In this document: piece by piece, positions 1 through 18,192 of the stretch
Numbering within the stretch: position 1 is the first letter of the stretch
Layout: every line of letters starts with the position of its first letter
Assembly (NCBI GenBank): GCA_002706365.1
Contig: PALM01000035.1
Span: 1 to 40,059 of the forward strand
Direction of reading: 5' to 3'
Length of the DNA: 40,059 nucleotides
Origin: Flavobacteriales bacterium
Lineage (GTDB): Bacteria > Bacteroidota > Bacteroidia > Flavobacteriales_E > Vicingaceae
Translations under genes and position numbers: made by a program
Notes under the pieces: generated by a model
The model's database searches: none
Told to the model about the DNA's origin: nothing
Seen by the model: only the letters and a program-made list of their open reading frames with translations

Positions 1-103
1 GAAATAGTAGTAAAATCAAGGCATTTGGCTCGTATCAATCTTTGTGCTTAACCGAAAGTTTAGTGCTTCGAAATCGCCTACTTTTCATATACTAACCGTA
101 AGC
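1..103. repeat. right half of an attC-like junction site (a1)
   Basis: No gene is seen here. The stretch from about 25 to 97 resembles the right arm of the 200-bp junction site at 26665–26859: both contain TTTGGCTC, GAAAGTTTA and CATATACTAA followed by C-C/T-C-G-T. The right edge reads CCGTAAGC (GT at 98–99), which starts the first large unit. The left arm lies outside the window. Confidence 0.6.
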
Positions 104-259
104 AAGCCAAAAGAACAACCGTACCTCGAAAAACAGGCATCTGAAGATCGAACATCTTAACATAAACTTACGGACTGACTTTGGCGACACACTGACCGAC
201 CCGAATGTTTTAAAAATTTTCCCACCGCACATTTTAAAAAATAATTTTAGCCTGCCCAC

Positions 260-325
260 ATTGGCACATTTGGGGTTTGCCCCCTCACTCAACCCGATAC
301 ACAGGCAAACTCCAAAAGAGCCAAT
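260..325 (+). repeat. covarying hairpin element E1 (ACAT/AAGA type)
   Basis: Outer stem ATTGGC (260–265) pairs with GCCAAT (320–325). Inner stem 270–281 pairs with 304–315, with one G/T mismatch. Between the stems lies ACAT (266–269) opposite AAGA (316–319). The loop is 22 nt and C/A-rich. It lies about 55 bp upstream of the operon promoter. The same architecture with different stem sequences recurs at 8638, 9239 and 25796. Confidence 0.75.
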
Positions 326-379
326 TACCCACCGCACCAAGATGATTTTCGTCACATTTTAAAGTTTTCTCAAAAAAAC

Positions 380-426
380 TTGCAGGTATAAATAAAATAG
401 ATCTATCTTTGTGTGTGAATATTCAC
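380..426 (+). promoter_or_regulatory. promoter and TetR operator of the RND operon
   Basis: TTG at 380–382 and TATCTTTG at 404–411 fit the Bacteroidota −33/−7 promoter (TTG, TAnnTTTG) with a 21-bp gap. Directly downstream, over the expected transcription start, lies the perfect 12-bp palindrome GTGAATATTCAC (415–426). Its position would block initiation, and the operon encodes a TetR repressor, so autoregulation by that protein is likely (inference). Confidence 0.75.
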
Positions 427-448
427 TTACTTAAAAAGTATAAACAAG

Positions 449-859
449 ATGAACGGTAAAAACAACATTGCAATAGGCTTCCTGACTATGGGGCTTTTTA
501 TGGCTTACGGCTTTTTGTTAATCTACCTGCGAGACTTTGCTCCGGGTAAAGAAGAATGGGTAAACTCATACAGCATAGGAAAGCACTTTGAAAGTAGACT
601 GGCTCACGTTCACGGGAACTTGTTTGCCTTTCTAAACATCCTAATTGGTTATCTACTCCTACATTTCAGAGACAAATTACAAAACGTGAAAGCTATTTCT
701 TGGTTGGCACTTACTGGCTTATTAATGCCAATAGGAATATTAACAGAAGTGTATTTTGGCTTACCTCCTGCTTTAGTATTGATTGGTGCAATTGCAATGA
801 CCGCCTCTGTAATTTGGTTAGGAGTTGCGTTTTTAAAAATGAAATCTATCGCTCAATAA
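449..859 (+). CDS. four-helix integral membrane protein, first gene of the TetR/RND operon
   Basis: A 136-residue protein with about four hydrophobic helices (roughly residues 8–28, 55–75, 85–103 and 108–130). It has a short polar loop after helix 1 and the histidine-containing segment RLAHVHGN leading into helix 2. I do not recognise a named family. The paired histidines at a membrane entry could bind haem or metal, but this is speculation. It is the first gene after the promoter at 380–426 and is followed 24 bp later by the Dps gene, so it is co-transcribed with the efflux operon. Confidence 0.75.
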   Translation: MNGKNNIAIGFLTMGLFMAYGFLLIYLRDFAPGKEEWVNSYSIGKHFESRLAHVHGNLFAFLNILIGYLLLHFRDKLQNVKAISWLALTGLLMPIGILTEVYFGLPPALVLIGAIAMTASVIWLGVAFLKMKSIAQ

Positions 860-883
860 TTTATAAACTTAAAATACATAAAA

Positions 884-1360
884 ATGAAAAATTTAAATTC
901 AATTGGTTTACACCAAGACAAAGCCGAAGAATTGGCAAATAAATTAAACGAGTTACTCGCAAACTATTCAATCTTTTATCAAAACACAAGAGGCTTTCAC
1001 TGGAACATTAAAGGTGAAAAGTTTTTTGAGTTGCATTTAAAATTTGAAGAACTCTACAATGATTTGTTGTTAAAAATTGATGAAGTAGCAGAACGCATAT
1101 TAACATTGGGACATACGCCCGAGCATAGCTATTCTCAATACGCTAAAACATCAACCATAAAAGAAAGCCAGAAAATTTCTGATGGTTTGATTGCAGTTGA
1201 ACAAATTCTTGAAGGATTTAAAACAGTAATCGTTATGCAAAGAGAAATTCTGGCATTAGCTTCTGATGCAAATGATGAAGGAACAAATGCTTTAATGAGC
1301 GATTACATTCGCTTTCAGGAAAAACAAGTATGGATGTATTCATCATTCTTAAAAAAATAA
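884..1360 (+). CDS. dps: Dps-family ferritin-like DNA-binding/iron-storage protein
   Basis: A 158-residue Dps/miniferritin, the usual length. These proteins form dodecamers that oxidise Fe(II) with H2O2, store iron and protect DNA. The inter-subunit ferroxidase residues are all present with canonical spacing: His39 (in RGFHWN), His51, Asp66 and Glu70. There is no long Lys-rich N-terminal tail, so DNA binding may be weak. It sits second in an efflux operon under TetR control, 4 bp before the tetR gene. This links oxidative/iron protection to the stress that induces the pump. Confidence 0.92.
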   Translation: MKNLNSIGLHQDKAEELANKLNELLANYSIFYQNTRGFHWNIKGEKFFELHLKFEELYNDLLLKIDEVAERILTLGHTPEHSYSQYAKTSTIKESQKISDGLIAVEQILEGFKTVIVMQREILALASDANDEGTNALMSDYIRFQEKQVWMYSSFLKK

Positions 1361-1363
1361 CAA

Positions 1364-1954
1364 ATGACAGTAGTAATTTCTGATAGACAACTTGAAATTA
1401 TTGAAGCAGCAGGTAAAATATTGACTGCTTCGGGAATAAGTGGGCTAACAATTAAGAACTTGGCTAAGGAAATGAAATTTTCTGAAAGTGCCATTTACAG
1501 ACACTTTACAAGCAAGGAAGAAATCATAATTGCATTACTTGAGTATCTTGCTCAAAGTATGGATGAACGCTATACTAATGCGATTAAAAGTGAACAATCG
1601 CCCGAAGAAAAATTTACAACGCTATTTCAAAATCAATTTTCATTTTTTAAAAAGCATCCACATTTTGTAGTGGCAGTTTTTTCTGACGGATTAATGGAAG
1701 AAAGCCAACGCATCAACGAAACAATATTGAAAATAATGGGTGTAAAAATGAAACACCTAATGCCTATTATTTTGGAAGGACAACAAAAGAAGGTATTTAC
1801 AAATTCAATAACATCCGATGAATTGATGCATATCGTGATGGGAACTTTTCGATTGCAAATGTTTAAATGGCGGGTTGCAAATTTTCAATTTGACATAAGC
1901 AGAAACGGAGATAATATGATACTAGCATTATTAACACTTTTAAAATCCAAATGA
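1364..1954 (+). CDS. TetR/AcrR-family transcriptional regulator
   Basis: A 196-residue one-component repressor. The N-terminal helix-turn-helix spans about residues 22–50 (GISGLTIKNLAKEM, then SESAIYRHFTSKEEI). The C-terminal part is the helical ligand/dimerisation domain. The gene starts 4 bp after dps and its stop overlaps the next start (ATGA, 1951–1954). The palindrome GTGAATATTCAC over the operon start is the natural operator candidate. The inducer cannot be predicted. Confidence 0.93.
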   Translation: MTVVISDRQLEIIEAAGKILTASGISGLTIKNLAKEMKFSESAIYRHFTSKEEIIIALLEYLAQSMDERYTNAIKSEQSPEEKFTTLFQNQFSFFKKHPHFVVAVFSDGLMEESQRINETILKIMGVKMKHLMPIILEGQQKKVFTNSITSDELMHIVMGTFRLQMFKWRVANFQFDISRNGDNMILALLTLLKSK

Positions 1955-2355
1955 AAAAGTATGTCCTCTATACATCAGCAGTAATTCTAAAAGCATTTGG
2001 CTTGCTCACTCTCTTTCTAAGCACATCTGTAATTTTCGATTTGTTTGGTATCAGAGCCAAAGAAGGCAATTATGTTCTGTTTGTAGTTTGGTCAAATTTC
2101 ATTAGTAGCATTCTTTATTTGTTTGCTGCTTATGGGTTTGCTAAAAGCAAAAAATGGACAGCTACTCTATTAGGAGTTTCAACAATTATATTGATAGCTG
2201 CATTTATCGGACTTAAAATTCACGCTAATTCGGGTGGTATCTATGAAACAAAAACCATCGGTGCAATGATTTTCAGAATTGCGGTAACGCTTTTCTTTGC
2301 AATCATTGCATTTTTCACTATCAATAAACAATTAAATAAAAATCATAATGAATAA
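1951..2355 (+). CDS. four-helix membrane protein of the TetR/RND operon
   Basis: A 134-residue protein with four predicted membrane helices (about residues 7–29, 43–63, 70–88 and 102–123) and a Lys/Asn-rich C-terminal tail. It is not recognised as a named family. It overlaps tetR by four bases and overlaps the following lipoprotein gene by eight bases, so it is probably translationally coupled and belongs to the same response. A role in the envelope next to the pump is an inference from position only. Confidence 0.78.
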   Translation: MKKYVLYTSAVILKAFGLLTLFLSTSVIFDLFGIRAKEGNYVLFVVWSNFISSILYLFAAYGFAKSKKWTATLLGVSTIILIAAFIGLKIHANSGGIYETKTIGAMIFRIAVTLFFAIIAFFTINKQLNKNHNE

Positions 2356-2809
2356 ATTAATCTTAACATTTGCCGTAGGTAGCTTATTGCTATACAGTTG
2401 TGGTAATTCCACAAACGAGAAATTAAATAATCAAACAGAAGTTGCCGAACATAATGATCATCATCACGATGATGAAAGTGAAGCCATCGAACTTAACAAT
2501 GGTGAAAAATGGCAAGTGGATGCCAATATGCTAACTCATATCAGAAATATGGAAAATGATGTTGTTTCCTTTTCTAAAGTCGAGCAAAAAGATTACAAAT
2601 CATTATCTGAAAAACTACAATCAAACATTGATTTACTTACTTCAAACTGCACAATGAAAGGCAAAGCACACGATGAATTGCACAAGTGGCTTTTGCCATA
2701 TATTGATATGGTAAAGGAACTTTCAGAAGCTAAAGACGATATCGAAGCATCAAAGCAATTTGAAAATATTCAGATTTCATTCACAACATTTAATCAATAC
2801 TTCAAATGA
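2348..2809 (+). CDS. histidine-rich lipoprotein, probably metal-associated
   Basis: A 153-residue secreted lipoprotein. A signal peptide ends in the lipobox LLYSC (Cys18). After a short Asn-rich linker comes a His/Asp cluster HNDHHHDDE at about residues 35–43, typical of metal-binding tails. The helical C-terminal part contains the motif CTMKGKAHDELHKWL, with Cys, Met and His residues that could bind a soft metal. It overlaps both neighbours by 4–8 bp. Function is not established; a periplasmic metal buffer is plausible. Confidence 0.75.
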   Translation: MNKLILTFAVGSLLLYSCGNSTNEKLNNQTEVAEHNDHHHDDESEAIELNNGEKWQVDANMLTHIRNMENDVVSFSKVEQKDYKSLSEKLQSNIDLLTSNCTMKGKAHDELHKWLLPYIDMVKELSEAKDDIEASKQFENIQISFTTFNQYFK

Positions 2810-3093
2810 ACATAAAAGAATTACATACACAAGAAAAACCAGTTTCAGCAACTTCTCTTTTCAAAAGTGAACTGGTTAACGCAACAGCTATTCAAATTTT
2901 GCAAGGCGAAAACTTAAAAGAGCATATCACCAAAACACCAGCACTTTTGATTTGCGTGGAAGGAGAAGTGATTTTTGAAAATGAAAACGGTATAAAAGAA
3001 ACACTACTGACGGGTGATTATGTAAACATTGAACCAATGGTAAAACATTGGGTTGTAGGAACAATTGAAAGTCAATTAATACTCATTAAGTAA
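2806..3093 (+). CDS. small cupin-domain protein
   Basis: A 95-residue single-cupin protein. The beta-barrel motifs are visible as LLICVEGEVIFENENG and LLTGDYVNIEPMVKHWV. Only one of the usual metal-binding histidines is obvious, so it may act as a binding or sensing barrel rather than an enzyme. It overlaps the lipoprotein gene by four bases (ATGA) and precedes the outer-membrane channel gene by 13 bp. The substrate is unknown. Confidence 0.82.
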   Translation: MNIKELHTQEKPVSATSLFKSELVNATAIQILQGENLKEHITKTPALLICVEGEVIFENENGIKETLLTGDYVNIEPMVKHWVVGTIESQLILIK

Positions 3094-3106
3094 AAAAATT
3101 TGACCA

Positions 3107-4441
3107 ATGAAGTTAGCGAATATTCACAAACATTATATTGCTCTGTTATTGATAATAGGAGGCTTTCAATCTGCACAAGCACAAACTTGGACTTTGCAAC
3201 AATGTCTTGATACCGCACAGGTTCATAACAAAAATCTGAAAATGAGCAGAAACAATATCGCCATTGGCGAACAAAGAGAAAAAGAAGCCAAAGCCAATTT
3301 AATTCCGAAAGTAACTGCCAATGCCGATTACAAGTATTTTACAAACCTGCCTTATCAGCTCTTACCAGTGAATGCTTTTAACCCTGCACTACCTGAAGGA
3401 GAATTCAGGGCAATGCAGTTTGGCGTTCCTCACAACATCAATGCAAACTTGCAACTCTCAATGCCTTTGTATAATCCACAAGTTTATGGAGCTATACAAA
3501 CTACTAAAATTGCTTCGGAATTGACCGACTTACAGTATCAAAAAACGGAGGAGCAAATCTATTTTGAAATTTCCAATTTGTATTACAATGCCCAAATCTT
3601 GCATCATCAATTAGCATTTATTGACAGTAATCTGATTAATGCAGAAAGACTTCTAAAAAATATGCAATTGCTCAATGAACAATTGCTTGCCAAAGGAACA
3701 GATGTAAGCAAGGTAAAATTGCAAGTATCGCAATTAACCACCCAAAAGGAAACCATCAAAAGTAAATACGAGCAGGTTCTAGATGTCTTGAAAATTGCTA
3801 TGGGTATTTCTATTGAACAAAATCTGCAAATTGAACCAAACATTCAATATCAAAACACAAATGAATATACAACTTCATCAACCTTAGATATTCGTATCAT
3901 AAAAACTCAAAACCGCTTATTGTCGAGTGAACTCAACACACTCAATAAATCAAGGTATTTGCCTTCGCTAAATCTGATTGGAATGTATGGAACAACGGGC
4001 TTTGGTTATAACGGACAACCTGCTTCTTTTCTTGATTTTTATCCGATTGGTTTTGCAGGTATTCAATTGTCCTATCCACTATTTAGCGGAACGGTTACAC
4101 TTCGAAAAATAAATCAGAAAACGCTTGAACTCCGAAACAATGAACTTCAATTTGGATTGCTTACCGAACAAAACAATATGCAAGTTGAAAATGCCAAAAT
4201 ACAAAGAGAAGTCGCTAAAAAAACGGTTAAACCCACAACCGAACAAATCCAGTTGGCACAAACAATCTATGAGCAAACCGTTCTTCAACAGAAACAAGGA
4301 ACGGCAAGTTTAACAGATGTTTTACTCGCAGACAATGCTTTGCGTGAAGCACAACAAACCTACCTATCTGCTGTAATTGATTACCTAAAAGCAGATTTAG
4401 AACTTAAAAAACTCACTGGAAATATTTCAATAATCAAATAA
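3107..4441 (+). CDS. TolC-family outer-membrane efflux channel
   Basis: A 444-residue outer-membrane factor with a signal peptide ending in SAQAQ. Two tandem OEP halves are rich in long amphipathic helices, for example LDTAQVHNKNLKMSRNNIAI near the start and TEQIQLAQTIYEQTVLQQKQ near the end. Length and internal duplication fit TolC. It is the first of three contiguous genes (channel, adaptor, pump) with gaps of 8 and 12 bp, which together form a tripartite RND efflux system. Confidence 0.93.
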   Translation: MKLANIHKHYIALLLIIGGFQSAQAQTWTLQQCLDTAQVHNKNLKMSRNNIAIGEQREKEAKANLIPKVTANADYKYFTNLPYQLLPVNAFNPALPEGEFRAMQFGVPHNINANLQLSMPLYNPQVYGAIQTTKIASELTDLQYQKTEEQIYFEISNLYYNAQILHHQLAFIDSNLINAERLLKNMQLLNEQLLAKGTDVSKVKLQVSQLTTQKETIKSKYEQVLDVLKIAMGISIEQNLQIEPNIQYQNTNEYTTSSTLDIRIIKTQNRLLSSELNTLNKSRYLPSLNLIGMYGTTGFGYNGQPASFLDFYPIGFAGIQLSYPLFSGTVTLRKINQKTLELRNNELQFGLLTEQNNMQVENAKIQREVAKKTVKPTTEQIQLAQTIYEQTVLQQKQGTASLTDVLLADNALREAQQTYLSAVIDYLKADLELKKLTGNISIIK

Positions 4442-4449
4442 TTATCACA

Positions 4450-5520
4450 ATGAATACAAAATTATCAATCCTAAAAAAAGCACTCTACGTCATCATTCCG
4501 TTGGCGATAATTGCCATTGTGGTAATTAAGTTGAAAAACAACAAAGAAATTACGCAGAGTAAAGTGTATCAATACGATAAAGAACAAGCTATTAATGTTC
4601 AAGTAGATACATTGAAACTCGAAAATGTGAATGCAGAATTTTCTTATTCAGGCACATTTGAGCCCAACAAGGAAACAAAAATAAGTGCCGAATTACAAGG
4701 GAAAATTAACACCATTTTAGTTGATGTCGGAAGTGTTGTAAGTAAAGGTCAAACTTTAATTCAATTGGATAATTCATTGCTGAAATTGCAACTGCAAACT
4801 ATTGAAGTGCAAATAGAAGGATTAGAAGCAGATGTAAACCGCTATACCATTTTGGCTAAAGCAGATGCCATTCAAGGTGTTCAATTAGAAAAAGCAGAAT
4901 TAGGTTTGAAATCTGCAAAAGTTCAGAAAGCAACTTTGTTGGAGCAGATAAACAAAACGACCATCAAAGCACCTTTTAATGGAGTAGTTACTGCGAAATT
5001 AAGTGAAGAAGGAGCTTTTGCTGCACCGGGCCTTCCATTGCTCCAAATAACGGACATTACAACTTTAAAATTCACCGTAAATGTTCCAGAAAAAGATTTA
5101 AGTCAGTTCAAATTAAATCGAAGCTATTCGCTTACGGCAGATGCCTATTCTGAAATTCTATTGACTGGAAAAACTACTATGATTGGCAGTAAAGCCAATA
5201 TGGGCAGTAGTTTTCCTGTTCAGTTTATGGTAAATAACACATCCGACTTGAAAATAAAATCTGGGATGTTTGGCAAAGTTCTACTCAAAAGCGAAATGTC
5301 AGGAAAGGGAATTGTAATACCCTCATCTGCCATACAAGGCACAGAGAACCAACCACAGGTTTATGTTGTGAAAAATGGCAAAGCAATTTTGCAAAACACC
5401 ACTATTTCAAAAAAGATACAAAACAAAGCATTTGTTTCAAGTGGATTAAATGAAGGTGATGTAATTGTAACGAATGGCTTCATCAATCTTTTTGATGGGG
5501 CGAATGTAACTGTTAAATAA
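4450..5520 (+). CDS. RND efflux periplasmic adaptor (membrane fusion protein)
   Basis: A 356-residue adaptor with one N-terminal membrane anchor (about residues 10–26). It then shows the lipoyl half-motifs (GKINTILVDVGSVVSKGQTL and IKAPFNGVVTAKLSEEGAF) flanking a short coiled-coil hairpin, and beta-barrel and membrane-proximal domains. It lies between the TolC-type channel and the RND pump and bridges them in the periplasm. No metal-binding Met/His cluster is seen, in contrast to the CusB-like protein at 21533. This suits drug rather than metal export. Confidence 0.93.
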   Translation: MNTKLSILKKALYVIIPLAIIAIVVIKLKNNKEITQSKVYQYDKEQAINVQVDTLKLENVNAEFSYSGTFEPNKETKISAELQGKINTILVDVGSVVSKGQTLIQLDNSLLKLQLQTIEVQIEGLEADVNRYTILAKADAIQGVQLEKAELGLKSAKVQKATLLEQINKTTIKAPFNGVVTAKLSEEGAFAAPGLPLLQITDITTLKFTVNVPEKDLSQFKLNRSYSLTADAYSEILLTGKTTMIGSKANMGSSFPVQFMVNNTSDLKIKSGMFGKVLLKSEMSGKGIVIPSSAIQGTENQPQVYVVKNGKAILQNTTISKKIQNKAFVSSGLNEGDVIVTNGFINLFDGANVTVK

Positions 5521-5532
5521 AATCAGCGAAAA

Positions 5533-8500
5533 ATGAATATTACAGAAATATCAATCAAACGTCCTTCGCTGATAATAGTGCTTTTCAGCGTATTTACTTT
5601 ATTAGGATTTATCGGGTATAAAAATTTGAGTTACGAGTTAATGCCCGACTTTAATCAGCCCGTAGTTGTAATTAAAACTGTTTACCCTGGTGCCGAACCA
5701 AACGAAGTAGAAACATCCGTTTCACGAAAAATCGAAGATGCTTTATCGAATTTAGAAGGTGTAGATTACTTGGTTACAAAATCATTGCCCAATGCTTCTA
5801 TCATCATAGCCAATCTGAAATATGGGACAGATTTGGATAAATCAATGCAAGACGCACAACGCTACATTGACAACATTCGCAAAGATTTACCACAGGATAT
5901 TTTAAGTCCTGTAATGAGTAAAGTTTCGCCAAATGATTTGCCGATAATGTCTATCAGTGCAACAAGTGATATGTCTGCGACCGAGTTTTATCAAAAAATG
6001 AAAGATGATTATCTGCCACAAATTCAACAAATAAAAGGCGTTGCAGAGATTACTGTTTTAGGAGGAGAAGAAAGAGAAATACAAGTAAAAATAAATCAGG
6101 ACAAACTGAAATTGTATAAAATTTCAATGGTTCAGGTTGTTGAAGCAATTAATCGTTCTGGCTTAGACTTACCTGCTGGAAAGGTGCAAACCGAAAAAGA
6201 AAGTAATTCAGTTCGTTTAATGGGAAAATTCGCATCTATTGAGGATATTAAAAATGTCCAAGTCGCTATGCCAGTTTTAGGAAGTCCTGTTTATGTAAAA
6301 GACTTAGCAGATGTTATTGACGGTATAAAAGAAACGACTTCCATCAGTCGATACAACGGTAAAAACGGCATTGGATTAATGCTTAAAAAACAAGGAGATG
6401 CAAACGCAGTAGATGTTTCAAAAGCAGTTCGGGAGAAATTTCAATCTATCGAACAACAAAATGCCAGTTCGGGTGTAAAATTTATTATTGCAGACGATAG
6501 CACGGATAACACGATTGCAGCCGTTAACTCCGTTGTTTTCGATTTAATCTTAGCGGTGTTATTGGTGTCGTTAGTGATGCTTTTATTTCTGCGAAGTTTT
6601 AGAAATTCCTTAATCGTTTTGGTAGCAATTCCAACGTCTTTAGTTACCGCATTCGCTGTGATGTGGCTTTTGGGTTACACCTTAAATTTAATGACCTTGC
6701 TTGCAATGTCTTTAATCATTGGTATTTTGGTAGATGATGCTACCGTAGTTTTAGAAAACATTCAAAAGCACTTAGATAAAGGAAAAGACAAACGATCTGC
6801 TGCATTGGATGGCCGAATGGAAATTGGCTTTGCTGCATTATCCATCACCTTGGTTGACGTGGTGGTTTTCTTGCCTATTCTTTTTCTACAAGTGTTTGTT
6901 GCTGATATGCTCAAGCAGTTTTCGGTTGTGGTAGTAACTTCTACTCTCACTAGTTTATTGGTTGGTTTTACATTGACCCCTTGGATGGCTTCTCGTATTG
7001 GCAAAAAAGAAGATTTTCAACCTACTAACTTTTTCAATCGCTTTTTGCTCTGGTTTGAAGTTCAATTGGAAAACTTTAATGAATGGTATGGTCGAAGATT
7101 AGAATGGGTATTGAGCCATAAATTAGCTTTTACAGGTATCGTTCTTATGCTTTTTGCAATGACTTTAGGTATTATGAAACAAGGAATTATTGGTAAAGAA
7201 TTAATATCAACAGGCGATCAAGGTAAATTTAGAATGGCATTAGAATTTGATAAGTCCACATCTATACATCAAAACAATTTAATTGCTCAAAAGATTGAAA
7301 CATACATTATTCAACAACCCGAAGTAGCAACAGTATTCAGCAATATTGGCGGACCAAGCACAGGCATTGGAAGTTTGGGTGTAGGTTCAGCAAATAAAAC
7401 TGAATTTACAATTCAACTAAAATCCAAAAAGGAATTGAATAATTTGCCTACCGAAACATTTATGAAAAATCTTCGGGAAGAACTAAAGTCAAAATTTCCG
7501 AGTATCAATTATTCAATGGCGGCATTGGGTTTAATTCCACGTTCAGCACCAATCGAAATTACGTTAAGCGGTAGCAATTTGGATTTGGTGATGAAAACAG
7601 GCGATGAATTGAAAACGGTAATCGAAAAAATTCCAGGTGCGGATAATGTTCGCTTATCCGTTGAAGCAGGTAATCCCGAATACAAAATAATTCCCGACAA
7701 AGATAAAATGCAACGATTGGGTTTAACAACCGCTTATGTTGGATTAAACCTAAGAACTGCCTTTACAGGAAATGATGATGCGACCCTAACCGAAAACGGA
7801 ACGGAATATCCTGTGCGAATTTGGTTAGATGAATTTAGCCGACAAAATTTTGAAGATGTTCAACAACTTTCTATCATTAACCCAATGGGGATACCAGTTG
7901 AAGTTTCACAATTTGCAACTGTTGAGCAGGACAATTCCCCTTCCTTATTAGAAAGGAAAGACCGACAACCAGCAGTTACCCTCACATCAGATGCTTTAGG
8001 CAGACCTTCAGGAACTGTTGCTGATGATGTAGTAGCATATCTAAAAGAAAATCCATTGCCAAATGGCATACAAATGACTTGGGGAAGTGACATCAAAAGA
8101 CAGAATGATAGTTTTGGAGCATTAGGATCCGTTTTACTCATTTCTTTTTTGCTGATTTACCTGATTATGGTAGCACTGTATGACAGTTTTGTTTATCCAT
8201 TTGTAGTTTTGTTTTCTATACCAGTTGCTGCAATTGGGGCTTTTTTCGCTTTGAATTTGTCTTTGAGCAATTTGAGTTTATTTGCCTTGTTGGGTTTAAT
8301 TATGCTAATGGGATTAGTGGTAAAAAATGCTATTCTAATTGTGGATTTCACCAATCAATTAAAAGCAGAAGGCAAACATTTTAAAGAAGCCTTAATCATT
8401 GCAGGAAAAGGTCGTATGCGACCAATCCTAATGACAACTCTTTCAATGGTTGTTGGTATGCTTCCCATTGCAATGGCAACAGGAACAGCAGCAGAATGGA

Positions 8501-8625
8501 AAAACGGACTTGCTTGGGTAATCATTGGAGGACTTCTTTCCTCATTAATTTTGACTGTGTTTTTAGTGCCTATGGTCTATTATTTAGTGGACACAACAAA
8601 AGAGAAATTAAACATAAGAAAATAG
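5533..8625 (+). CDS. RND (HAE1-type) proton-driven efflux pump
   Basis: A 1030-residue inner-membrane RND transporter of the normal length, with 12 helices and two large periplasmic loops. Proton-relay residues are present: Asp401–Asp402 in GILVDDATVVLENI (TM4) and Lys931 in GLVVKNAILIVDF (TM10). This pattern marks the hydrophobe/amphiphile exporters (HAE), not the metal exporters (HME). It is the last gene of the TetR operon, and the hairpin E2 begins 13 bp after its stop. Likely substrates are drugs or toxic amphiphiles, not identified. Confidence 0.93.
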   Translation: MNITEISIKRPSLIIVLFSVFTLLGFIGYKNLSYELMPDFNQPVVVIKTVYPGAEPNEVETSVSRKIEDALSNLEGVDYLVTKSLPNASIIIANLKYGTDLDKSMQDAQRYIDNIRKDLPQDILSPVMSKVSPNDLPIMSISATSDMSATEFYQKMKDDYLPQIQQIKGVAEITVLGGEEREIQVKINQDKLKLYKISMVQVVEAINRSGLDLPAGKVQTEKESNSVRLMGKFASIEDIKNVQVAMPVLGSPVYVKDLADVIDGIKETTSISRYNGKNGIGLMLKKQGDANAVDVSKAVREKFQSIEQQNASSGVKFIIADDSTDNTIAAVNSVVFDLILAVLLVSLVMLLFLRSFRNSLIVLVAIPTSLVTAFAVMWLLGYTLNLMTLLAMSLIIGILVDDATVVLENIQKHLDKGKDKRSAALDGRMEIGFAALSITLVDVVVFLPILFLQVFVADMLKQFSVVVVTSTLTSLLVGFTLTPWMASRIGKKEDFQPTNFFNRFLLWFEVQLENFNEWYGRRLEWVLSHKLAFTGIVLMLFAMTLGIMKQGIIGKELISTGDQGKFRMALEFDKSTSIHQNNLIAQKIETYIIQQPEVATVFSNIGGPSTGIGSLGVGSANKTEFTIQLKSKKELNNLPTETFMKNLREELKSKFPSINYSMAALGLIPRSAPIEITLSGSNLDLVMKTGDELKTVIEKIPGADNVRLSVEAGNPEYKIIPDKDKMQRLGLTTAYVGLNLRTAFTGNDDATLTENGTEYPVRIWLDEFSRQNFEDVQQLSIINPMGIPVEVSQFATVEQDNSPSLLERKDRQPAVTLTSDALGRPSGTVADDVVAYLKENPLPNGIQMTWGSDIKRQNDSFGALGSVLLISFLLIYLIMVALYDSFVYPFVVLFSIPVAAIGAFFALNLSLSNLSLFALLGLIMLMGLVVKNAILIVDFTNQLKAEGKHFKEALIIAGKGRMRPILMTTLSMVVGMLPIAMATGTAAEWKNGLAWVIIGGLLSSLILTVFLVPMVYYLVDTTKEKLNIRK

Positions 8626-8637
8626 CCACCACACAGA

Positions 8638-8700
8638 TGTAAGCACATTTGCAATTCGCATAAGCCAACGCACAGTCCAAAAATTGCAAAAGAGCTTACA
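8638..8700 (+). repeat. covarying hairpin element E2 (ACAT/AAGA type)
   Basis: Outer stem TGTAAGC (8638–8644) pairs perfectly with GCTTACA (8694–8700). Inner stem TTGCAATT (8649–8656) pairs with AATTGCAA (8682–8689). ACAT (8645–8648) stands opposite AAGA (8690–8693). The 25-nt loop contains CCAACGCACAG, shared with the E3 loop. It starts 13 bp after the RND pump stop codon. There is no T-tract, so it is not a standard terminator. Confidence 0.78.
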
Positions 8701-8914
8701 CCTTTACCACCCAAAGAAATGCAAAGCATTCACGAACACCAATAAAAGTCAACTAATAAAGTGAGTAAAAATTATTTTTTAAAATTTCCTTCCCTTCTAA
8801 AATTTTTAAAACCCCTACCCACAGCCGACACAAACAGACCCAAACTTAACTCGACAACAACACCGAAACTCACAGTGGACAAGGACTTTACAACCTCGAC
8901 AGAAAAGAAGGCCA
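8701..8914. other. gene-free A/C-rich tail of the first unit
   Basis: No convincing gene is present. The + strand is A/C-rich and G-poor. Together with the flanking elements, 8626–9317 forms an almost 700-bp gene-free zone made of hairpin E2, this tail, the junction palindrome 8915–9048, the head of the second unit and hairpin E3. Confidence 0.6.
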
Positions 8915-9048
8915 GCTTACAACATTGTATAAAAGCAATAGCGGTTTGGGTGCATACTCGAACCGTTTTTGCGTTTATTAAGTATCTTGCTATATGAAAA
9001 GTAAGTGCATTTTATCCGCTACAGCTCTTATACTTGACCGTTGGGGCA
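8915..9048. repeat. attC-like junction palindrome a2 between the two large units
   Basis: The left arm starts GCTTACAAC (8915–8923) and continues GTATAAAAGCAATAGCGG. The right arm has the imperfect complement (CCGCTACAGCTCTTATAC) and ends GACCGTTGGGGCA (9036–9048). The middle (about 8958–8999) is unpaired by eye. The left edge matches the start of the unit on its left (98). The right edge GTTGGGGCA is matched by TGCCCCAAC at 25983–25991, the end of the unit on its right. Confidence 0.65.
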
Positions 9049-9238
9049 CATGTAAAAAAGACAACAGACACATCGACAATGACGAGCAACGCCAGACATA
9101 TTATAACTCAGGACCACTTTACGACTGGACTCACTCGATTTGACCACCAGTGTAATCGTACATGGACTCAGACGGCTAACAAGAAAAAGGAAAGAAAAAT
9201 CCCCTGCTTCGCATTTTTGAAAATTTCTGCCAGCCCGC

Positions 9239-9302
9239 ATTTGGCACATCCCGCTTTTCCAACGCACAGAACTATCTCTGCTAAAAGCGGGAAGAGCCAA
9301 AT
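9239..9302 (+). repeat. covarying hairpin element E3 (ACAT/AAGA type)
   Basis: Outer stem ATTTGGC (9239–9245) pairs with GCCAAAT (9296–9302). Inner stem CCCGCTTTT (9250–9258) pairs with AAAAGCGGG (9283–9291). ACAT (9246–9249) stands opposite AAGA (9292–9295). The loop is 24 nt, beginning CCAACGCACAG. All pairs are Watson–Crick. It ends 15 bp before the start codon of the HMA–AraC regulator gene, so it may also form part of that mRNA leader. Confidence 0.8.
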
Positions 9303-9317
9303 TTTCCTACTCACAAG

Positions 9318-9887
9318 ATGACGCAAACGAAACTACATATCAAAAACATGGTTTGCCCTCGCTGTATTATGGCAGTGAAGGACTTACTCAAAACACTTGA
9401 AATTCATTATAAAGACATTCAATTGGGACAGGTATTTCTATCAAAAGAAATTGATGAGCAAAAGCTAAAATCATTGGAAATGCAGTTAGATTCGTTGGGA
9501 TTTGAACTGCTCGAGCCAGGTAAATCAGCCTTGATTTCACAGATCAAAACACTGCTCATCGAGCAGATTCATCACAAGAAAGAACCACTCGCCATCAACT
9601 TTTCTTCATTGATTGCTGACAGGTTGCATCACGAGTATGCCTATTTAAGCAGATTGTTTTCTTCCGTTGAAGGGATCACGATTGAGAAATTTATCGTTTT
9701 ACAGAAAGTTGAGAAGGTGAAGGAGTATTTGGTTTACAATCAAATGACCTTATCAGAGATTGCCCTAGAAATGAACTACAGCAGTGTAGCGCATCTTTCT
9801 GCTCAGTTCAAGAAAGAAACTGGGATGACCCCTACTCAATTTAAAGGGCAAAGTGATCCACTGAGAAAACCCTTGGATAAGCTCTAG
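9318..9887 (+). CDS. HMA–AraC fusion transcriptional regulator, putative copper sensor
   Basis: A 189-residue protein joining two modules. Residues about 1–70 resemble an HMA (heavy-metal-associated) ferredoxin-like fold with the metal-binding pair Cys13-Pro-Arg-Cys16 in [15 protein letters not shown]. Residues about 100–182 form an AraC-type double helix-turn-helix, with [20 protein letters not shown] and the family ending GMTPTQFKG. Family knowledge suggests the HMA part binds Cu(I) or another soft metal and the AraC part activates transcription. The next gene is copA, and two promoters nearby share a motif suitable as its target. No clear promoter of its own is seen. Confidence 0.88.
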
Positions 9888-9897
9888 GCATAATTTC

Positions 9898-9952
9898 ATA
9901 AACCAAAGTCAAGATTGTATAACACCCTATGCTGCCTTCCTTGCGACATTTG
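9898..9952 (+). promoter_or_regulatory. copA promoter with putative HMA–AraC activator site
   Basis: ATAAACCAAAGTCAA (9898–9912) is followed by ATTGTATAACA. A −7-like box GACATTTG lies at 9945–9952. No good −33 TTG is found at 19–21 bp, as expected for an activator-dependent promoter. The same 15-mer lies 46 bp before the −7 box of the next transcription unit (12555), against 47 bp here. The −7 position places the transcription start downstream of the ATG at 9955. Confidence 0.68.
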
Positions 9953-9975
9953 TAATGTCAAAAAAAAGGAAGAGC

Positions 9976-12228
9976 ATGGAACAATCAAACATTTTAGAAA
10001 AGACGGATAAATCCAAGTCAGTCCAGCTAATCACAAATAGTTTCCCCATAACAGGAATGACCTGTGCAGCCTGTGCAGGTAGTGTGGAGTCTATTTTATC
10101 CCACACCCAAGGGGTTACAAAAGCCAATGTCAATTTTGCTTCCTCATCCGTATTGGTAGAGTATGATCCAGTACTTCAACCTTCCGATTTACAAAGTGCT
10201 TTACAATCTGTAGGATATGATTTGATCGTGGATGCAGACGACCCGTCAGAAGCTCAGGAAAACCTGCAAAAGCAACACTATCAAGATGTAAAACAAAGAA
10301 CCATTTGGTCAGCCGTTCTTACTCTTCCAGTCTTCATCATAGGCATGTTTTATATGGATTGGGTGGTTGGAAGATGGGTTTCATTGGTTTTGACCATTCC
10401 TATCCTATTTTGGTTTGGCCGAAGCTTTTACATCAATGCTTTTAAGCAAGCCAAACACGGTAAAGCCAATATGGACACTCTGGTTGCGCTCAGCACGGGG
10501 ATTGCCTTTCTATTTAGCGTTTTCAATACACTATTCCCAGATTTCTGGCATGCCAGGGGCATACACCCGTATGTCTATTACGAAGCGGCTACTGTCATCA
10601 TCACATTTATTTCATTGGGTAAGCTGCTGGAAGAAAAAGCCAAGTCCAATACCTCATCAGCCATTAAGAAATTAATGGGATTGCAACCAAAAACACTCAA
10701 GGTAATCCAACATGGTGAAGAAGTGGAAATGCCTATTTCATCGGTTCAAAAGGGCTATACCATCGTTGTTAGACCAGGAGAAAAAATACCTGTAGATGGG
10801 GAAGTTTCTAAAGGTAACTCGTACGTGGATGAAAGCATGATTACAGGTGAACCCGTTCCTGTAGAAAAACCCAAAGGTGCCGAAGTATTTGCAGGAACGG
10901 TCAATCAAAAGGGTAGTTTTCAATTTATCGCTAAAAAAGTGGGTGGTGAAACTTTGCTATCTCAGATCATTAAAATGGTGCAGCAAGCACAAGGAAGCAA
11001 AGCACCCGTTCAGAAATTGGTTGATAAAATTGCTGGTGTTTTTGTACCTGTCGTAATCACAATCGCAATAGTCACATTTATCACCTGGATCATGAAAGGG
11101 GGTGATGACGCTTTAACACACGCGCTGCTCACGTCTGTAGCGGTATTAGTAATTGCATGCCCTTGTGCTTTAGGTTTAGCCACACCAACGGCCATTATGG
11201 TAGGCATTGGTAAGGGAGCTGAGAACAATATCCTAATCAAAGATGCCGAGAGTCTGGAGTTGGGCCATCAAACCAGTGCCATCGTGTTGGATAAAACGGG
11301 TACGATAACAAAAGGTAAACCAACGATCACCAATTGGAATTGGGAAACCAGCAACAATTATTACATGCAAGTACTTTTAGCTATTGAGTCACAGTCGGAA
11401 CACCCTTTGGCTGATGCAGTGGTAGCCAGACTAAAAAAGGATGGACTTAAACCTGAAAGTATCAAGGATTTTCAGAGTATCACTGGAATGGGTGCCGAAG
11501 CTCGTTCAACAGATGGTGAAAAGTTTTACATCGGCAATCAGCGCTTACTAAATACTAAGAATGTCAAACTTTCTTCTGATTTGGATAAGCAAGCCAGTGA
11601 ATGGAGTAACGAAGGCAAGACTGTTATCTTCTTCGCAAACCAATTAACCGTCCTGGCTATTCTTGCCATCGCTGATGAAATAAAGGAGAGTTCAGCAACA
11701 GCCATCAAAACATTGCAAGATCGCGGCATAAACGTGTATATGCTTACGGGCGATAATGAGCAAACAGCCAAAGCTGTCGCTAAACAAGTAGGAATAGAAC
11801 ATTTCAAAGCCGAAGTGATGCCTTCAGACAAGGCCGATTTCGTGAAGGAATTACAAGCGCAAGGAAAAGTAGTTGCCATGGTTGGTGACGGAATCAACGA
11901 TTCCCATGCACTTGCCCAGGCAGATGTGAGTATAGCGATGGGTAAAGGATCAGACATAGCCATGGATGTAGCTAAAATGACCCTTATCACGTCCGACTTA
12001 CAAGCCATTCCCAAAGCCTTGAAATTATCCAAACTTACAGTGCAAGGCATAAGGCAAAATCTGTTCTGGGCATTTATTTACAACATCATCGGTATTCCAA
12101 TTGCCGCAGGTGTATTGTATGCCTTCAACGGATTCTTGCTTGACCCAATGATTGCAGGAGCAGCCATGGCTTTTAGCTCTGTATCAGTAGTAGCCAATAG
12201 TCTGCGCCTTAAAGCAGCAAAACTTTAA
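9976..12228 (+). CDS. copA: Cu(+)-exporting P1B-type ATPase CopA
   Basis: A P1B-1 ATPase that pumps Cu(I) out of the cytosol. From the ATG at 9976 it has 750 residues. One N-terminal HMA domain carries GMTCAAC (Cys30, Cys33). It also shows the TGEPVP actuator motif, the CPC motif in TM6 (about residue 395), the phosphorylation site DKTGT (Asp439), the SEHPLA nucleotide motif and GDGIND. TM7 has YN and TM8 has MAFSS, as in Cu(I) pumps. I prefer 9976 over the in-frame ATG at 9955 because AGGAAG precedes it and 9955 lies upstream of the expected transcription start. Confidence 0.96.
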
Positions 12229-12256
12229 TTCATGTTTAATTCAAAATAGTCATAAA

Positions 12257-12466
12257 ATGAAAACACTAAAATTCAAATCAAATATTAATTGTACAGGTTG
12301 TTTATCAAAAGTATCTCCTGTGTTAAATGAAGAGCAAAGCATCAAGAAATGGGATGTTGACCTAAAACACGATGACCGTATTCTGACCGTTGAAACGGAT
12401 AGTCTAAGCTCAAATGAAATCAAACAAACCGTGCAAAAGGCAGGCTTTATCGCTGATGAAATATAA
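12257..12466 (+). CDS. HMA-domain copper chaperone (CopZ-like)
   Basis: A 69-residue free HMA domain with the metal-binding motif NCTGC (Cys12, Cys15) and the beta-alpha-beta-beta-alpha-beta length of CopZ/Atx1 proteins. It probably carries Cu(I) to CopA, encoded 28 bp upstream, and could also load the HMA–AraC sensor. The usual GMxCxxC is altered to INCTGC, a variant seen in Bacteroidota. A terminator follows directly, so copA and this gene form one transcript. Confidence 0.88.
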   Translation: MKTLKFKSNINCTGCLSKVSPVLNEEQSIKKWDVDLKHDDRILTVETDSLSSNEIKQTVQKAGFIADEI

Positions 12467-12491
12467 GAACCACACATTTAAATGATCTCAG

Positions 12492-12525
12492 GCCCTTGTT
12501 CAATTTCCTTGAATAAGGGCTTTTT
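12492..12525 (+). terminator. rho-independent terminator after the copA operon
   Basis: GCCCTTGTTCAA (12492–12503) pairs with TTGAATAAGGGC (12509–12520) with one mismatch across a 5-nt loop, followed by TTTTT (12521–12525). It closes the copA–chaperone transcript and insulates it from the next promoter at 12601. Confidence 0.85.
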
Positions 12526-12554
12526 CATGTTCAAGGGGTAACGAACCGAATTAT

Positions 12555-12608
12555 ATAAACCAAAGTCAAAATTCTGTAAGACATCCCGATTATGAGTTCT
12601 TAGTTTTG
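12555..12608 (+). promoter_or_regulatory. promoter of the HYC_CC_PP–cusA operon with putative HMA–AraC site
   Basis: ATAAACCAAAGTCAA (12555–12569) is identical to the motif before copA (9898–9912) and is again followed by an ATT-rich segment. The −7 box TAGTTTTG is at 12601–12608. No −33 TTG is well placed. The conserved motif-to-box distance (46 versus 47 bp) argues for one activator bound on the same face of the DNA at both promoters. The AraC-type regulator at 9318 is the obvious candidate. Confidence 0.7.
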
Positions 12609-12614
12609 TGTTTC

Positions 12615-13034
12615 GTGAAAAAGATCATCTCTATATCGCTTGCATTTCTAATGTTGGTTTCCAACATCGGGTTTGCCATGAATACGCACTTCTGTGGTGG
12701 TGAAGCGGTAGAGACTACTTTTACCCTAGGCTTGGGAAATCCCAACTGCGGCATGGAAGATATGGAACAGGAATGCGAGAACATGCCATCTGAAGAAGAG
12801 CAGATTAAAGCTAAGCCTTGCTGTGAAAATCAGCATCAAGTCATTCAAACAGATGACACTGCTAAAACTCAGCCCTCTGCATCTGTAGTTAATCCTTTTT
12901 TCTTTGCTGCTTTTGTTCAGGTTTTTATCCAGCCTTTCTTCTTTGCTGAAAAAGGGCAATCACAATATTCAGAATATCCCCCTCCCTTCTTTGAAAGAGA
13001 CGTTCAAGTTCTTTTTCAAACCTTCTTGATTTAA
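12615..13034 (+). CDS. HYC_CC_PP-family small secreted cysteine-rich protein
   Basis: A 139-residue protein with a signal peptide (KKIISISLAFLMLVSNIGFA). The three hallmarks of the Bacteroidota HYC_CC_PP family follow: HFCGG (H-x-C), PCC and YPPP near the end. A hydrophobic Phe-rich segment lies at about residues 95–110. Members are typically found before CusA-type pumps, as here; their biochemical role is unknown, but the thiols suggest metal handling. The start is taken as GTG 12615, only 6 bp after the −7 box, so the message is nearly leaderless. A TTG at 12606 overlaps the promoter and was rejected. Confidence 0.8.
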   Translation: MKKIISISLAFLMLVSNIGFAMNTHFCGGEAVETTFTLGLGNPNCGMEDMEQECENMPSEEEQIKAKPCCENQHQVIQTDDTAKTQPSASVVNPFFFAAFVQVFIQPFFFAEKGQSQYSEYPPPFFERDVQVLFQTFLI

Positions 13035-13039
13035 TCCAT

Positions 13040-13138
13040 TAATACAATTTGAAGCTCTCGGTCAATAGATCGCTGAGCAATTTGGCATTTCTTGCCATTG
13101 AACATTCCTTTTCTGTTCAATCAACATTAATTGTATTA
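13040..13138 (+). promoter_or_regulatory. structured leader that may mask the cusA start codon
   Basis: Three helices can form in the gap before cusA. TAATACAATT (13040–13049) pairs perfectly with AATTGTATTA (13129–13138), which includes the A of the start codon. Within it, TGGCA (13083–13087) pairs with TGCCA (13093–13097), and ATTGAACA (13097–13104) pairs with TGTTCAAT (13114–13121); the two share base 13097. The closing helix would hide the cusA initiation region unless opened. Function is inferred only. Confidence 0.5.
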
Positions 13139-16100
13139 TGCTTAATAGAATCATTAAATATTTCTTGGAGAACAAGTTGGTTACTGTTCTTGTCCTTACA
13201 GGTTTTGTGGCCTGGGGTATCATCACCGCACCTTTCGGTTGGCAGGTGGGCGTTCTCCCGTCTGACCCTGTACCCGTTGATGCTATACCTGATATTGGCG
13301 AAAACCAGCAAATCGTATTTACCCAATGGCAGGGTCGATCACCACAGGATATTGAAGATCAAATCTCCTATCCTTTAACCACCTATTTGCTTGGTATACC
13401 TGGTGTAAAATCTATTCGTAGCTCATCCATATTCGGTTTTTCAAGCATCTATATCATCTTCTCGGAAGATGTAGAGTTCTATTGGTCACGTTCTCGTATC
13501 CTTGAAAAACTGAGTTCATTACCATCAGGGCTATTGCCCGATGGAGTTCAGCCAAGCTTAGGTCCTGACGCTACAGCTTTAGGTCAGGTGTACTGGTACA
13601 CCATTGAAGGAAGAGACAAAAACGGTAACCCAACTGGTGGTTGGGATTTACACGAAATCCGCACGGTTCAGGACTTCTATGTGAAGTATGGACTCAATGC
13701 AACAGAAGGAGTTTCAGAAGTAGCCTCTATTGGTGGATTTGTGCAAGAGTATCAAATAGACGTGAATCCTGATGCACTCAAAGCTTACGACATCCCTTTG
13801 CACAGAGTAATGCAGGCAGTTCAAAAATCGAATAAAGATGTAGGAGCAAAAACCATAGAGATCAACCAAGCAGAATACTTAGTACGTGGTTTGGGCTATG
13901 TTAAAAAAGTCGAAGACATTGAAAAGGCCGTTGTTGCCGTGCAGGACAATGTGCCTGTACGAATAAAAGATATTGGCGTGGTTTCGCTCGGCCCTGCTAC
14001 CCGCAGGGGCTTGCTAGATAAAGATGGTGCAGAAGTAGTAGGCGGAGTAGTTGTAGCACGATATGGTGCGAATCCCTTGCAGGTCATCAACAATGTAAAA
14101 AAGAAGATAAAAGAAATAGCACCTGGGCTTCCAAAGAAAACTTTAGCAGATGGCAGAGAATCTCAATTAACCATTGTGCCCTTTTATGATCGTTCGGAAT
14201 TGATTTACGAAACCTTAGGCACCCTAGAAGAAGCCATTTCACTGCAAGTACTCATTACCATTTTGGTAGTAATTGTAATGGTGTATAATCTTAGGGCTTC
14301 TTTTCTCATTTCAAGCATACTACCTATTGCTGTGCTCATGGTATTTATCGCCATGCGTTACTTTGGCGTAGATGCCAACATTGTAGCCTTATCAGGTATT
14401 GCCATTGCCATCGGAACGATGGTTGATTTAGGCGTGATTCTCTCAGAGAATATCATCAAACACATTGATGAAGCACCACCTGAGCAGAAACTGATTACCA
14501 CCGTTTACAATGGCGCTTCTGAAGTGGCTACAGCAATACTCACAGCCGTTTCTACCACCATTGTGAGTTTCATTCCTGTATTCACCATGCAAGCTGCCGA
14601 AGGAAAGCTATTTGGGCCTTTGGCCTTTACCAAGACCTTTGCCCTGATTGCTGCATTGCTGGTGAGTCTGCTAATCATGCCTACCCTGGCACATTGGTTT
14701 TTCGGCTTCAAAATCAAGAACAATCTACTCAAAAAGTACGGTAGCTACGTACTTGTCATCATTGGGGTAGTCGCACTGGCTTTTGGTCAGGTTTGGGGTG
14801 GAGTAATGCTATTTCTCTTTGGTGTAATAGGCATTCTCAAACAATTCTTAAATGCTAACAGCAAGAATTTTCCGAAACCCGTTCTCTTTTTATACCAATA
14901 CGCAGAGTTAATCATCGTATTAATAGGCGTTACCTGGCTCTTGGCAAAATACTGGTTACCACTAGGGGCATCACAGTCTCTCCTCGTCAATTTCGTATTT
15001 GTGGCAATACTAGTGGCTGTAATCTTGGGCAGCTTCACCCTACTAGAATATCAATACAAAAGGTTTTTGCATTGGTGCCTTGATAATAAAACAAAGTTTC
15101 TTGTCATTCCTTCTTTGCTTATTCTGTTGGCTGCCAACATTTGGTTAGGCTTCAACACCGTTTTCGGTTTTGTTTCTAAAGGATTTGAATCCGTAGGCTG
15201 GAACATCAACAAGACTAAAGTTTGGTCTGAATTGGCGCATACTTTTCCAGGAATTGGTAAGGAGTTCATGCCTTCGCTCGATGAAGGCAGTTTTCTACTT
15301 ATGCCCACCTCCATGCCACACTCAGGTATGGAGTACAATCGAAGAGTGGTCGGGCAATTGGATATGTTGCTAACCAATATACCTGAAGTGGAATTGACGG
15401 TAGGTAAATTAGGACGGGTAGAATCTGCTCTTGACCCTGCACCCATTTCGATGTATGAAAACATCATCAATTACAAGTCCGAATACATTCTCAACAAAAA
15501 AGGTCATCGACAAAGGTTTAAGGTAGATGACAACAATCACTTCATTACCATTTCGGGCGATACCTTGAGTAATCAAGAAGGACTAGACCAAGGAATTAAT
15601 GCGAGCGATTTAATTGTTGATGATAATGGTAAATACTTTCGCAATTGGCGTAAAGTGATTAAGTCTCCAGATGACATCTGGAATGAAATTGTCAAAGTCA
15701 CTAAGATTCCAGGGGTTACTTCAGCCCCTAAACTTCAGCCTATTGAGACGCGTTTGGTGATGCTTCAAACAGGGATGCGAGCTCCTATGGGCATAAAAGT
15801 TTATGGCCCAGACCTGAGAACGATAGAAGACTTTGGTTTACAAGTCGAAAGCATACTGAAAGAAGTTCCATCGGTAAAAAAAGAAGCGGTCTTTGCCGAC
15901 AGGATAGTGGGTAAACCTTACCTACATCTAAATATCAATCGCGATGAAATTTCACGCTATGGGCTAAACATAGAAGATGTCCAACAGACCATCGAAACCG
16001 CTATTGGTGGTATGAAGATTACCTCAACGGTAGAAGGACGTGAGCGTTTCCCTGTCAGGGTTCGCTATCCAAGAGAACTTAGGGATGACCCTTCAGCTCT

Positions 16101-16962: not shown

Positions 16963-18191
16963 AGAAATTTATCTTAATCATATTCATTGCCATGGGCTTT
17001 CACTTTTCAGGAAATGCTCAAACACTAGAAGACTATTTCCAAACAGCCGCAGAAAACAACCCTGGGCTTTTGGCCAAATACAAAAACTTTGAAGCAGCAA
17101 TGCAAAGGGTCACACAGGTGAGTACCTTACCTGATCCAAATTTGTCTTTTGGTTACTTCATCTCTCCTGTAGAAACGAGAGTGGGCCCTCAACAAGCCAG
17201 ATTCTCTTTAACCCAAATGTTTCCCTGGTTTGGAACGCTAAGTGCCCAGAAAGATGCCGCTTCCCTGTTGGCGGAAGCGAAGTATCAGGAATTTCTGGAT
17301 GCTCGAAACAAACTCTATTATCAGGTGGCCGCCTCCTATTATCCGCTCTATGAACTAGAAAAGCTGATTTCGATTGAAGCAGAAAATCAACGCATTCTAT
17401 CTTCTTACAAGGAGATAGCCACTGTTCAGTTTCAAAATGATAAAGGGTCGATGGTAGATGCGCTGCGTGTAGACATCATGCTAAAGGATGCAACCACTGA
17501 ACTATCTATTCTCAATCAAAAGAAAAAGCCTCTGGAAACCCGCTTTAATAAGCTTTTAAATCGAGATGAAAACGAATCCATTGAGATAATTGACTCGCTT
17601 CAAATAAAAAGAATCATACCAGATTTTAGAAAGGATTCATTGCTGTTGGCAAATCCTTTATTAGAAGAACTGGATCTGAAGGTTCAGGCAAGCCAAGCCC
17701 AGGAACGGGCGGCTATCAAACAAGGGCTACCCAAGTTTGGGGTAGGTCTTGACTATGTGATTGTTGGAGAAAGAACGGACGCCACCATATCTGATAATGG
17801 CAAGGATGTATTGATGCCCATGGTTACCATGAGCCTTCCCATTTTTCGTGGGAAATATAAAGCTGCCCAAAATGAAGCGCAATTGATGCAAGAATCCTAT
17901 GAGTTTCAAAAGGAAGAAGTATCTAATCGGCTTATTAGCTCCTATGAAATGATTTGGTTTGAGATTCAGAAACAGCTTAAACTCATTGAATTATTCGAAG
18001 AGCAAATTCAGGAATCAGAGCAATCCCTCAACCTCCTTTTCTCAGCCTACAGCAACTCAGGGAAAGAGTTTGAAGAAGTACTGCGGATGCAACAGCAAAT
18101 TTTAAAGTATCAACGATTGAAAGCCACTGCCCTTTCGGATTATCATATCACTTTGGCTGAGTTGGACTATATAACCGCAAAAAACAAATAA
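16959..18191 (+). CDS. TolC-family outer-membrane channel (CusC-like)
   Basis: A 410-residue outer-membrane factor. The start ATG at 16959 overlaps the cusA stop (ATGA) and is followed by a clear signal peptide (KKFILIIFIAMGFHFSGNAQ). An upstream in-frame ATG at 16923 lies inside cusA and is rejected. Two OEP repeats with long coiled helices are visible. As partner of the CusA-like pump it would carry Cu/Ag across the outer membrane. It ends 1 bp before the APC permease gene. Confidence 0.92.
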   Translation: MKKFILIIFIAMGFHFSGNAQTLEDYFQTAAENNPGLLAKYKNFEAAMQRVTQVSTLPDPNLSFGYFISPVETRVGPQQARFSLTQMFPWFGTLSAQKDAASLLAEAKYQEFLDARNKLYYQVAASYYPLYELEKLISIEAENQRILSSYKEIATVQFQNDKGSMVDALRVDIMLKDATTELSILNQKKKPLETRFNKLLNRDENESIEIIDSLQIKRIIPDFRKDSLLLANPLLEELDLKVQASQAQERAAIKQGLPKFGVGLDYVIVGERTDATISDNGKDVLMPMVTMSLPIFRGKYKAAQNEAQLMQESYEFQKEEVSNRLISSYEMIWFEIQKQLKLIELFEEQIQESEQSLNLLFSAYSNSGKEFEEVLRMQQQILKYQRLKATALSDYHITLAELDYITAKNK

Positions 18192-18192
18192 G

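Follow-up and report, generated by a model that had tools for sequence, protein, structure and literature searches.

An efflux operon carried in an operon-sized, integron-type gene cassette of Bacteroidota

Cassette 1 and its operon

The window analysed here, meaning the whole of contig C35 (40,059 nt) of a 3.0 Mb Bacteroidota genome, begins with a TetR/RND efflux operon which an earlier note had placed in a large unit at positions 98-8923, built on the same plan as a copper unit. Positions 98-9039 of the window form a single gene cassette, referred to below as cassette 1 or unit 1, within an integron-type array. The GTAAGC start and the end edge named in that note are both present, and the start is complementary to the cassette's own terminus, ...GCTTACAAC; the edges read GTAAGCAAGCC from 98 and GGCCAGCTTACAAC at 8910-8923 and are mutually complementary. 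The end at 8923 was too short, as an attC-like site (8921-9039) comes next and the cassette including this site reaches 9039. In integron cassettes generally, start and end are complementary and lie next to each other in the circular form. Within the 8.9 kb of cassette 1 are nine open reading frames (ORFs) on a single strand, and the following features were assigned.

1..97, + strand: 3' portion of the preceding cassette's attC-like site, with terminus ...CATATACTAACC, of a family of attC-like ends also found at 26853 and 32243
98..9039, + strand: complete cassette 1, operon plus its own attC-like site (self-complementary edges; homology to an Algoriphagus formosus copy, L064)
98..259, + strand: head, with R'-type edge GTAAGCAAGCC and an A/C-rich linker
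207..248, + strand: 5' strand of closing stem P, two helices around an unpaired C-rich loop, pairing with 8768-8812
260..325, + strand: hairpin S, with internal motif A.A / C-G / A.A (ACA/AGA)
404..411, + strand: putative native promoter -7 box TATCTTTG (TAnnTTTG type), inside the frame, read from the sequence by likeness to known Bacteroidota promoters
449..859, + strand: first ORF of the operon, a 136-aa membrane protein of unknown kind
884..1360, + strand: Dps/ferritin-like protein (PF00210)
1364..1954, + strand: TetR-family regulator (PF00440)
1951..3093, + strand: three small ORFs of 134, 153 and 95 aa, the 95-aa one cupin-like
3107..4441, + strand: TolC-like outer membrane efflux protein (PF02321)
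4450..5520, + strand: RND periplasmic adaptor (TIGR01730)
5533..8625, + strand: RND efflux permease (PF00873)
8635..8703, + strand: hairpin E, its ACA motif 19 nt 3' of the last stop codon
8704..8923, + strand: tail, with an A/C-rich linker and R''-type edge GGCCAGCTTACAAC
8768..8812, + strand: 3' strand of closing stem P, pairing with 207-248
8921..9039, + strand: attC-like site of cassette 1, with complementary AAC...GTT arms, which travels with the cassette in the copies L064 and L073

Integron cassettes are typically short, with one promoterless ORF (PMC3856429), although this is a usual feature and not a strict definition. Cassette 1, with its nine ORFs and putative promoter of its own, departs from that form. 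It shares with integron cassettes the 3' attC-type site, the R'/R'' self-complementarity and the position in a tandem array with common core sites.

The frame of closing stem and hairpins

The earlier note had read the unit as edge, head, hairpin, operon, hairpin, tail and edge. This order was found in unit 1, and again in the copper unit with a hairpin pair of its own; the closing stem P, formed by 207-248 with 8768-8812, had been overlooked. In the complete frame, a stem closes head onto tail and encloses hairpin S, a co-directional operon and hairpin E, which comes directly after the final stop codon; the tail is last. Both hairpins (260-325 and 8635-8703) have the form C-ACA-T...A-AGA-G; the motif lies between two stems, folded as A.A, C-G, A.A. 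The pattern GCACAT..AAGAGC was seen three times in the window as against 0.19 expected, and a structural scan of approximately 487 kb of fetched sequence returned such hairpins by the dozen, as against none in shuffled sequence. They are found throughout the class Bacteroidia, with a pattern match in 46 of 100 relatives, which by eye represents mostly real hairpins in about 28. An Rfam search of the window gave no match at E-values up to 1.

The hairpin arms covary. When arms were chosen by their outer letters only, 80% paired at seven or more of nine internal positions, compared with 22% when arms were swapped between elements, and the pair types vary freely (pair 4 is C-G in 33 and G-C in 31). 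Stem P is made up of two perfect helices flanking an unpaired C-rich loop and joins the head with the tail of one cassette; in eight cassettes with unrelated cargo, tails fit their own heads best (mean 38.6; permutation p 3e-5). Among 344 Watson-Crick pairs in stem P there was no G-T pair, and the hairpin stems contained 9 G-T as against 12 A-C, a pattern which points, if only suggestively, to a role in DNA over one in RNA. The same frame encloses operons of unrelated content; in 20 frames genes run in the direction of the cassette over 145,320 bp and against it over 774 bp, and the ACA of hairpin E mostly lies 17-21 nt 3' of the last stop codon regardless of the final gene.

This directionality and the fixed distance to the stop codon would also be expected if the cassette were of the same integron kind and its frame an expression module, with hairpin S halting transcription that enters from the cassette upstream and hairpin E protecting or ending the operon mRNA. 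A 3' run of at least four T was present in 20 of 51 S-like hairpins as against 1 of 38 E hairpins, in partial agreement with such a role, but it is missing from most S-like and nearly all E hairpins. An RNA role also predicts an excess of G-T over A-C, and none is present; stem P is left unexplained; and the first start codon of the copper unit lies 13 nt past hairpin S. We regard an expression module as possible but doubtful, and favour a frame acting at the DNA level, which may form an extended recombination or capture structure.

A search for empty frames, in which hairpin S would be followed directly by hairpin E, found none and returned instead hairpins with an inverted motif. In this third type AGA is 5' and ACA 3' (L195, L196, L197, L198, L200, L204, L206 and L208; about position 1500, with L197 at 518 and L204 at 1500). 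Most of these directly follow an edge of attC type, for example GTTACCGGTCATGC or GTTATGCCTCACCC. It seems to be the duplex motif, and not the loop, that is conserved.

Copies, transfer and the borders of the operon

At least ten other Bacteroidota genomes, with different orders represented, hold framed copies of unit 1. In Algoriphagus formosus (L064; approximately 91-93% identity) the match spans window 98-9045 exactly, taking in the cassette and its attC-like site and nothing further, and in a Kordia metagenome-assembled genome (L073) it likewise stops, at 9034. Homology in these two copies ends at the cassette edges, in support of the view that unit 1 is, very probably, a large cassette of several genes that belongs to a chromosomal integron of Bacteroidota and moves whole. 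In other copies (G074, Lacihabitans L062, Sediminibacterium L069 and L071, and L072) operon and frame match but the head differs, as does the site past 8925. Head and attC variants are paired, A with A in the window, L064 and L073 and B with B in G074, L062 and L072, although few copies were read; this tracking is expected if the two are neighbours in a circle. Between the same hosts the cassette TetR is 87-95% identical and the core XerD 53-60%. No unit 1 match was found in plasmid records, no frame match in plasmid and phage records, and no exact match to the frame pattern in IMG/VR viral contigs.

The impression by eye that the coding DNA of unit 1 is the more A+T-rich was borne out: its coding G+C content (and G+C at third codon positions, GC3) is 35.1% (29.5%), compared with 41.3% (38.3%) for the copper unit and 40.7% (38.1%) for a chromosome sample. 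Codon usage likewise separates the two units, with distances to the chromosome of 0.27 for unit 1 and 0.20 for the copper unit, the latter slightly outside the range of resampled chromosome genes (up to 0.17). The composition of unit 1 is foreign and that of the copper unit near the chromosome's. A copper-unit match was absent from every fetched unit 1 copy. The two units are not constant companions of one composition, since their compositions differ and the fetched copies of unit 1 in other Bacteroidota never adjoin the copper unit; together with the TetR and XerD identities this supports the earlier note's suggestion that the units arose separately and were joined by one shared mechanism. 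The self-complementary edges, the attC-like sites and the array behind an integrase gene and attI identify that mechanism as cassette exchange of the integron type, the integron having gone unrecognised before. Movement of cassette 1 as an integron cassette is well supported by these sequence comparisons, and since the same cassette occurs in different Bacteroidota orders and the same frame on unrelated operons, it appears that entire operons are exchanged as single pieces.

Unframed copies of the operon are widespread in Bacteroidota, which would suit an ordinary, vertically inherited operon whose repeats arose by chance or from an A+T-rich background. Such an account is scarcely credible given the loss of all hairpins on shuffling, a near-identical unit in distant hosts and the exact edges. 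Slightly less remote, and still very improbable, is that the operon is carried by an IS200/IS605-like or Helitron-like transposon whose ends are the hairpins. Elements of the IS200/IS605 type have an imperfect hairpin at each end, both oriented alike, and the hairpins of unit 1 are likewise imperfect and share one orientation. However, no transposase, including one of the Y1 type, is found among the proteins encoded by unit 1, homology of the best copies passes the hairpins and continues to the cassette edges, and stem P and attC are both found beyond the hairpins; the unit is bounded by attC-type edges instead.

Unframed copies (L076, L082-L141) match only from approximately 338-415 to 8607-8625, just within both hairpins, and in the unframed L068, which is 92.8% identical, the junction is at window position approximately 340-342, about 15 nt past hairpin S. 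Copies L062 and L075 have one terminal gene more than the window and hairpin E still directly follows the final stop codon. These limits indicate that the frame delimits a captured operon, which probably keeps its own putative promoter (404-411). The same junctions, the cargo stopping right at the stop codon and the unrelated operons within one frame could also be read as a functionless scar of cassette birth, left when the promoter side and the stop codon of a host operon were fused to a standard module. This seems unlikely, as the stems are perfectly paired despite sequence differences between cassettes, so that pairing is maintained or renewed; a DNA-level function of the frame remains our preferred reading.

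Several further features of the operon were noted among the copies. The 136-aa membrane protein (449-859) had no Pfam or NCBIfam match and is retained in many Bacteroidota copies. Most framed copies (L062, L064, L069, L071 and L072) are approximately 750 bp longer between the Dps-like and TetR genes, and the window looks deleted at 1349-1363. In G074, L072 and some diverged copies the RND adaptor gene and the permease gene stand approximately 440 bp further apart (G074:C6, concatenated positions 24215-24656; window 5507-5532). Inverted GTGAATATTCAC-like copies at 410-432, before the first gene, and at 3110-3132, at the start of the TolC gene, are possible TetR operators.

Arrays, a candidate integrase and known integrons

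Cassette 1 is followed in the window by further cassettes.

9040..25991, + strand: cassette 2, the copper/RND unit, with complementary edges GTTGGGGCA / TGCCCCAAC
9237..9304 and 25794..25862, + strand: hairpins of cassette 2; its stem P is formed by 9211-9228 with 25877-25894
25989..26108, + strand: attC-like site of cassette 2, ending CAGACC ahead of GTAATGCC (sequence reading and fold)
26109..29386, + strand: small cassettes continuing the array, including a MepB-like gene
28295..29386, + strand: small cassette with perfect edges GTTGTGCTTA / TAAGCACAAC

An attC-like palindrome follows both unit 1 and the copper unit. A gene pair that is probably an addiction module lies in one small cassette of the array (26853-27262). 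In G074:C6 a chain of cassettes with attC-like sites of mostly approximately 120 bp lies behind an integrase gene, and the RND unit, at 92% identity, is the tenth of the eleven listed. More chains were found in L174, L044, L046, L049 and L072, the starts of their cassettes being the reverse complement of their own ends.

In the window's own genome, contig C6 encodes a 389-aa tyrosine recombinase followed by a putative attI and a small cassette array. An integrase gene adjoining attI and an array is present in G000:C6, G074:C6 and many relatives, and relatives of this integrase were found in 70 of 100 genomes at an E-value of 1e-30, the weaker ones including Xer-type proteins. The attI-like sequence ATAAACAAG^TT lies approximately 92-110 nt past the integrase stop codon with a different cassette after each, and framed cassettes immediately follow it in L146, L163 and L170. 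The 3' side of the integrase gene was closer to the contig end in 27 of 30 cases, an arrangement that repeats would bring about. The protein has an N-terminal extension of approximately 100 aa; five of seven tested matched NF040815 above cut-off, and the best solved relative is XerA, with IntI4 next. From its position, the C6-type integrase is the likely recombinase moving the cassettes. In G000:C6:1-3050 the first cassette past the putative attI is a toxin-antitoxin-like gene pair, and small cassettes continue to the contig end.

We propose that the C6-type tyrosine integrase would excise and insert unit 1 at attC and attI via a circular form. In the circle, stem P would flank the attC-like site on either side, with hairpins E and S next beyond it, such that the whole non-cargo part could form one extended fold around the attC site. 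The frame would in this way let operons of approximately 3-17 kb with their own promoter act as cassettes.

Several observations weigh against this proposal. The IntI-specific insert (I2 region) is absent from the integrase: alignments to the profile and to IntI4 skip it, and no insertion was seen in 25 integrases. The integrase gene is on contig C6, apart from unit 1, and the stretch of C6 examined held no framed cassette; over 100 genomes the association of hairpins with integrase was not significant (20 of 28 as against 39 of 72, p 0.17). Moreover, the left edge of cassette 1 is degenerate in the window, three bases short. This edge reads GTTGTAAGCAAGCC in two copies elsewhere, and unit 1 copies elsewhere read GTTGTAAGC; the window's left edge has probably lost three bases, perhaps by strand exchange in a different register. 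At two cassette starts (97-98 and 26108-26109) ACC-GTA stands in place of ACC-GTT.

No canonical IntI was found over cut-off in the window's genome or its relatives, and TIGR02249 had no match over cut-off in the 100 relatives, the control genomes being without an integron. Unit 1 works like an integron cassette, yet the IntI-type integrase of canonical integrons is lacking. The system resembles integron cassettes and the sedentary chromosomal integrons of Vibrio, Xanthomonas and Treponema in its folded attC-like site, complementary edges, tandem array and tyrosine integrase beside attI. It differs from them in the closing stem and two hairpins, in an integrase that has the approximately 100 aa N-terminal extension but no IntI insert, and in an integrase gene that points toward the array. 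Integrons have been reported in Bacteroidota (PMC8618304, PMC9668308), mostly without integrase and array together (PMC9024848); the IntegronFinder 2.0 paper lists Salinibacter ruber M1 as a complete Bacteroidetes integron and otherwise only In0 elements in Bacteroidetes (PMC9024848). The Salinibacter integron likewise belongs to the Bacteroidetes/Chlorobi group, whereas the system described here is spread over the class Bacteroidia. With XerA and NF040815 recombinases the integrase shares its family match, but it adjoins attI and arrays instead of dif and has the extra N-terminal region. A literature search within open-access papers turned up no account of these hairpins, of operon-sized cassettes with such a frame, or of attC arrays accompanied by an integrase that lacks the IntI insert. 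Tentatively, the system may represent a distinct integron lineage of Bacteroidia, in which the N-terminal extension perhaps substitutes for the I2 insert and the frame of stem P with hairpins S and E would be a device fusing promoter-to-stop operons to attC.

Integrons are known chiefly for the shuffling of single genes, and here complete operons with regulator and promoter appear to move on the same principle between distant Bacteroidota. The regular anatomy of the frame marks the limits of its cargo, making the birth of gene cassettes approachable through framed and unframed copies of one operon. The action of integron integrases on folded single strands has been credited to the I2 helix (PMC7790495), and an integrase without the IntI insert beside arrays would bear on the origin of this activity. 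Searches demanding an IntI domain and short cassettes may miss such systems.
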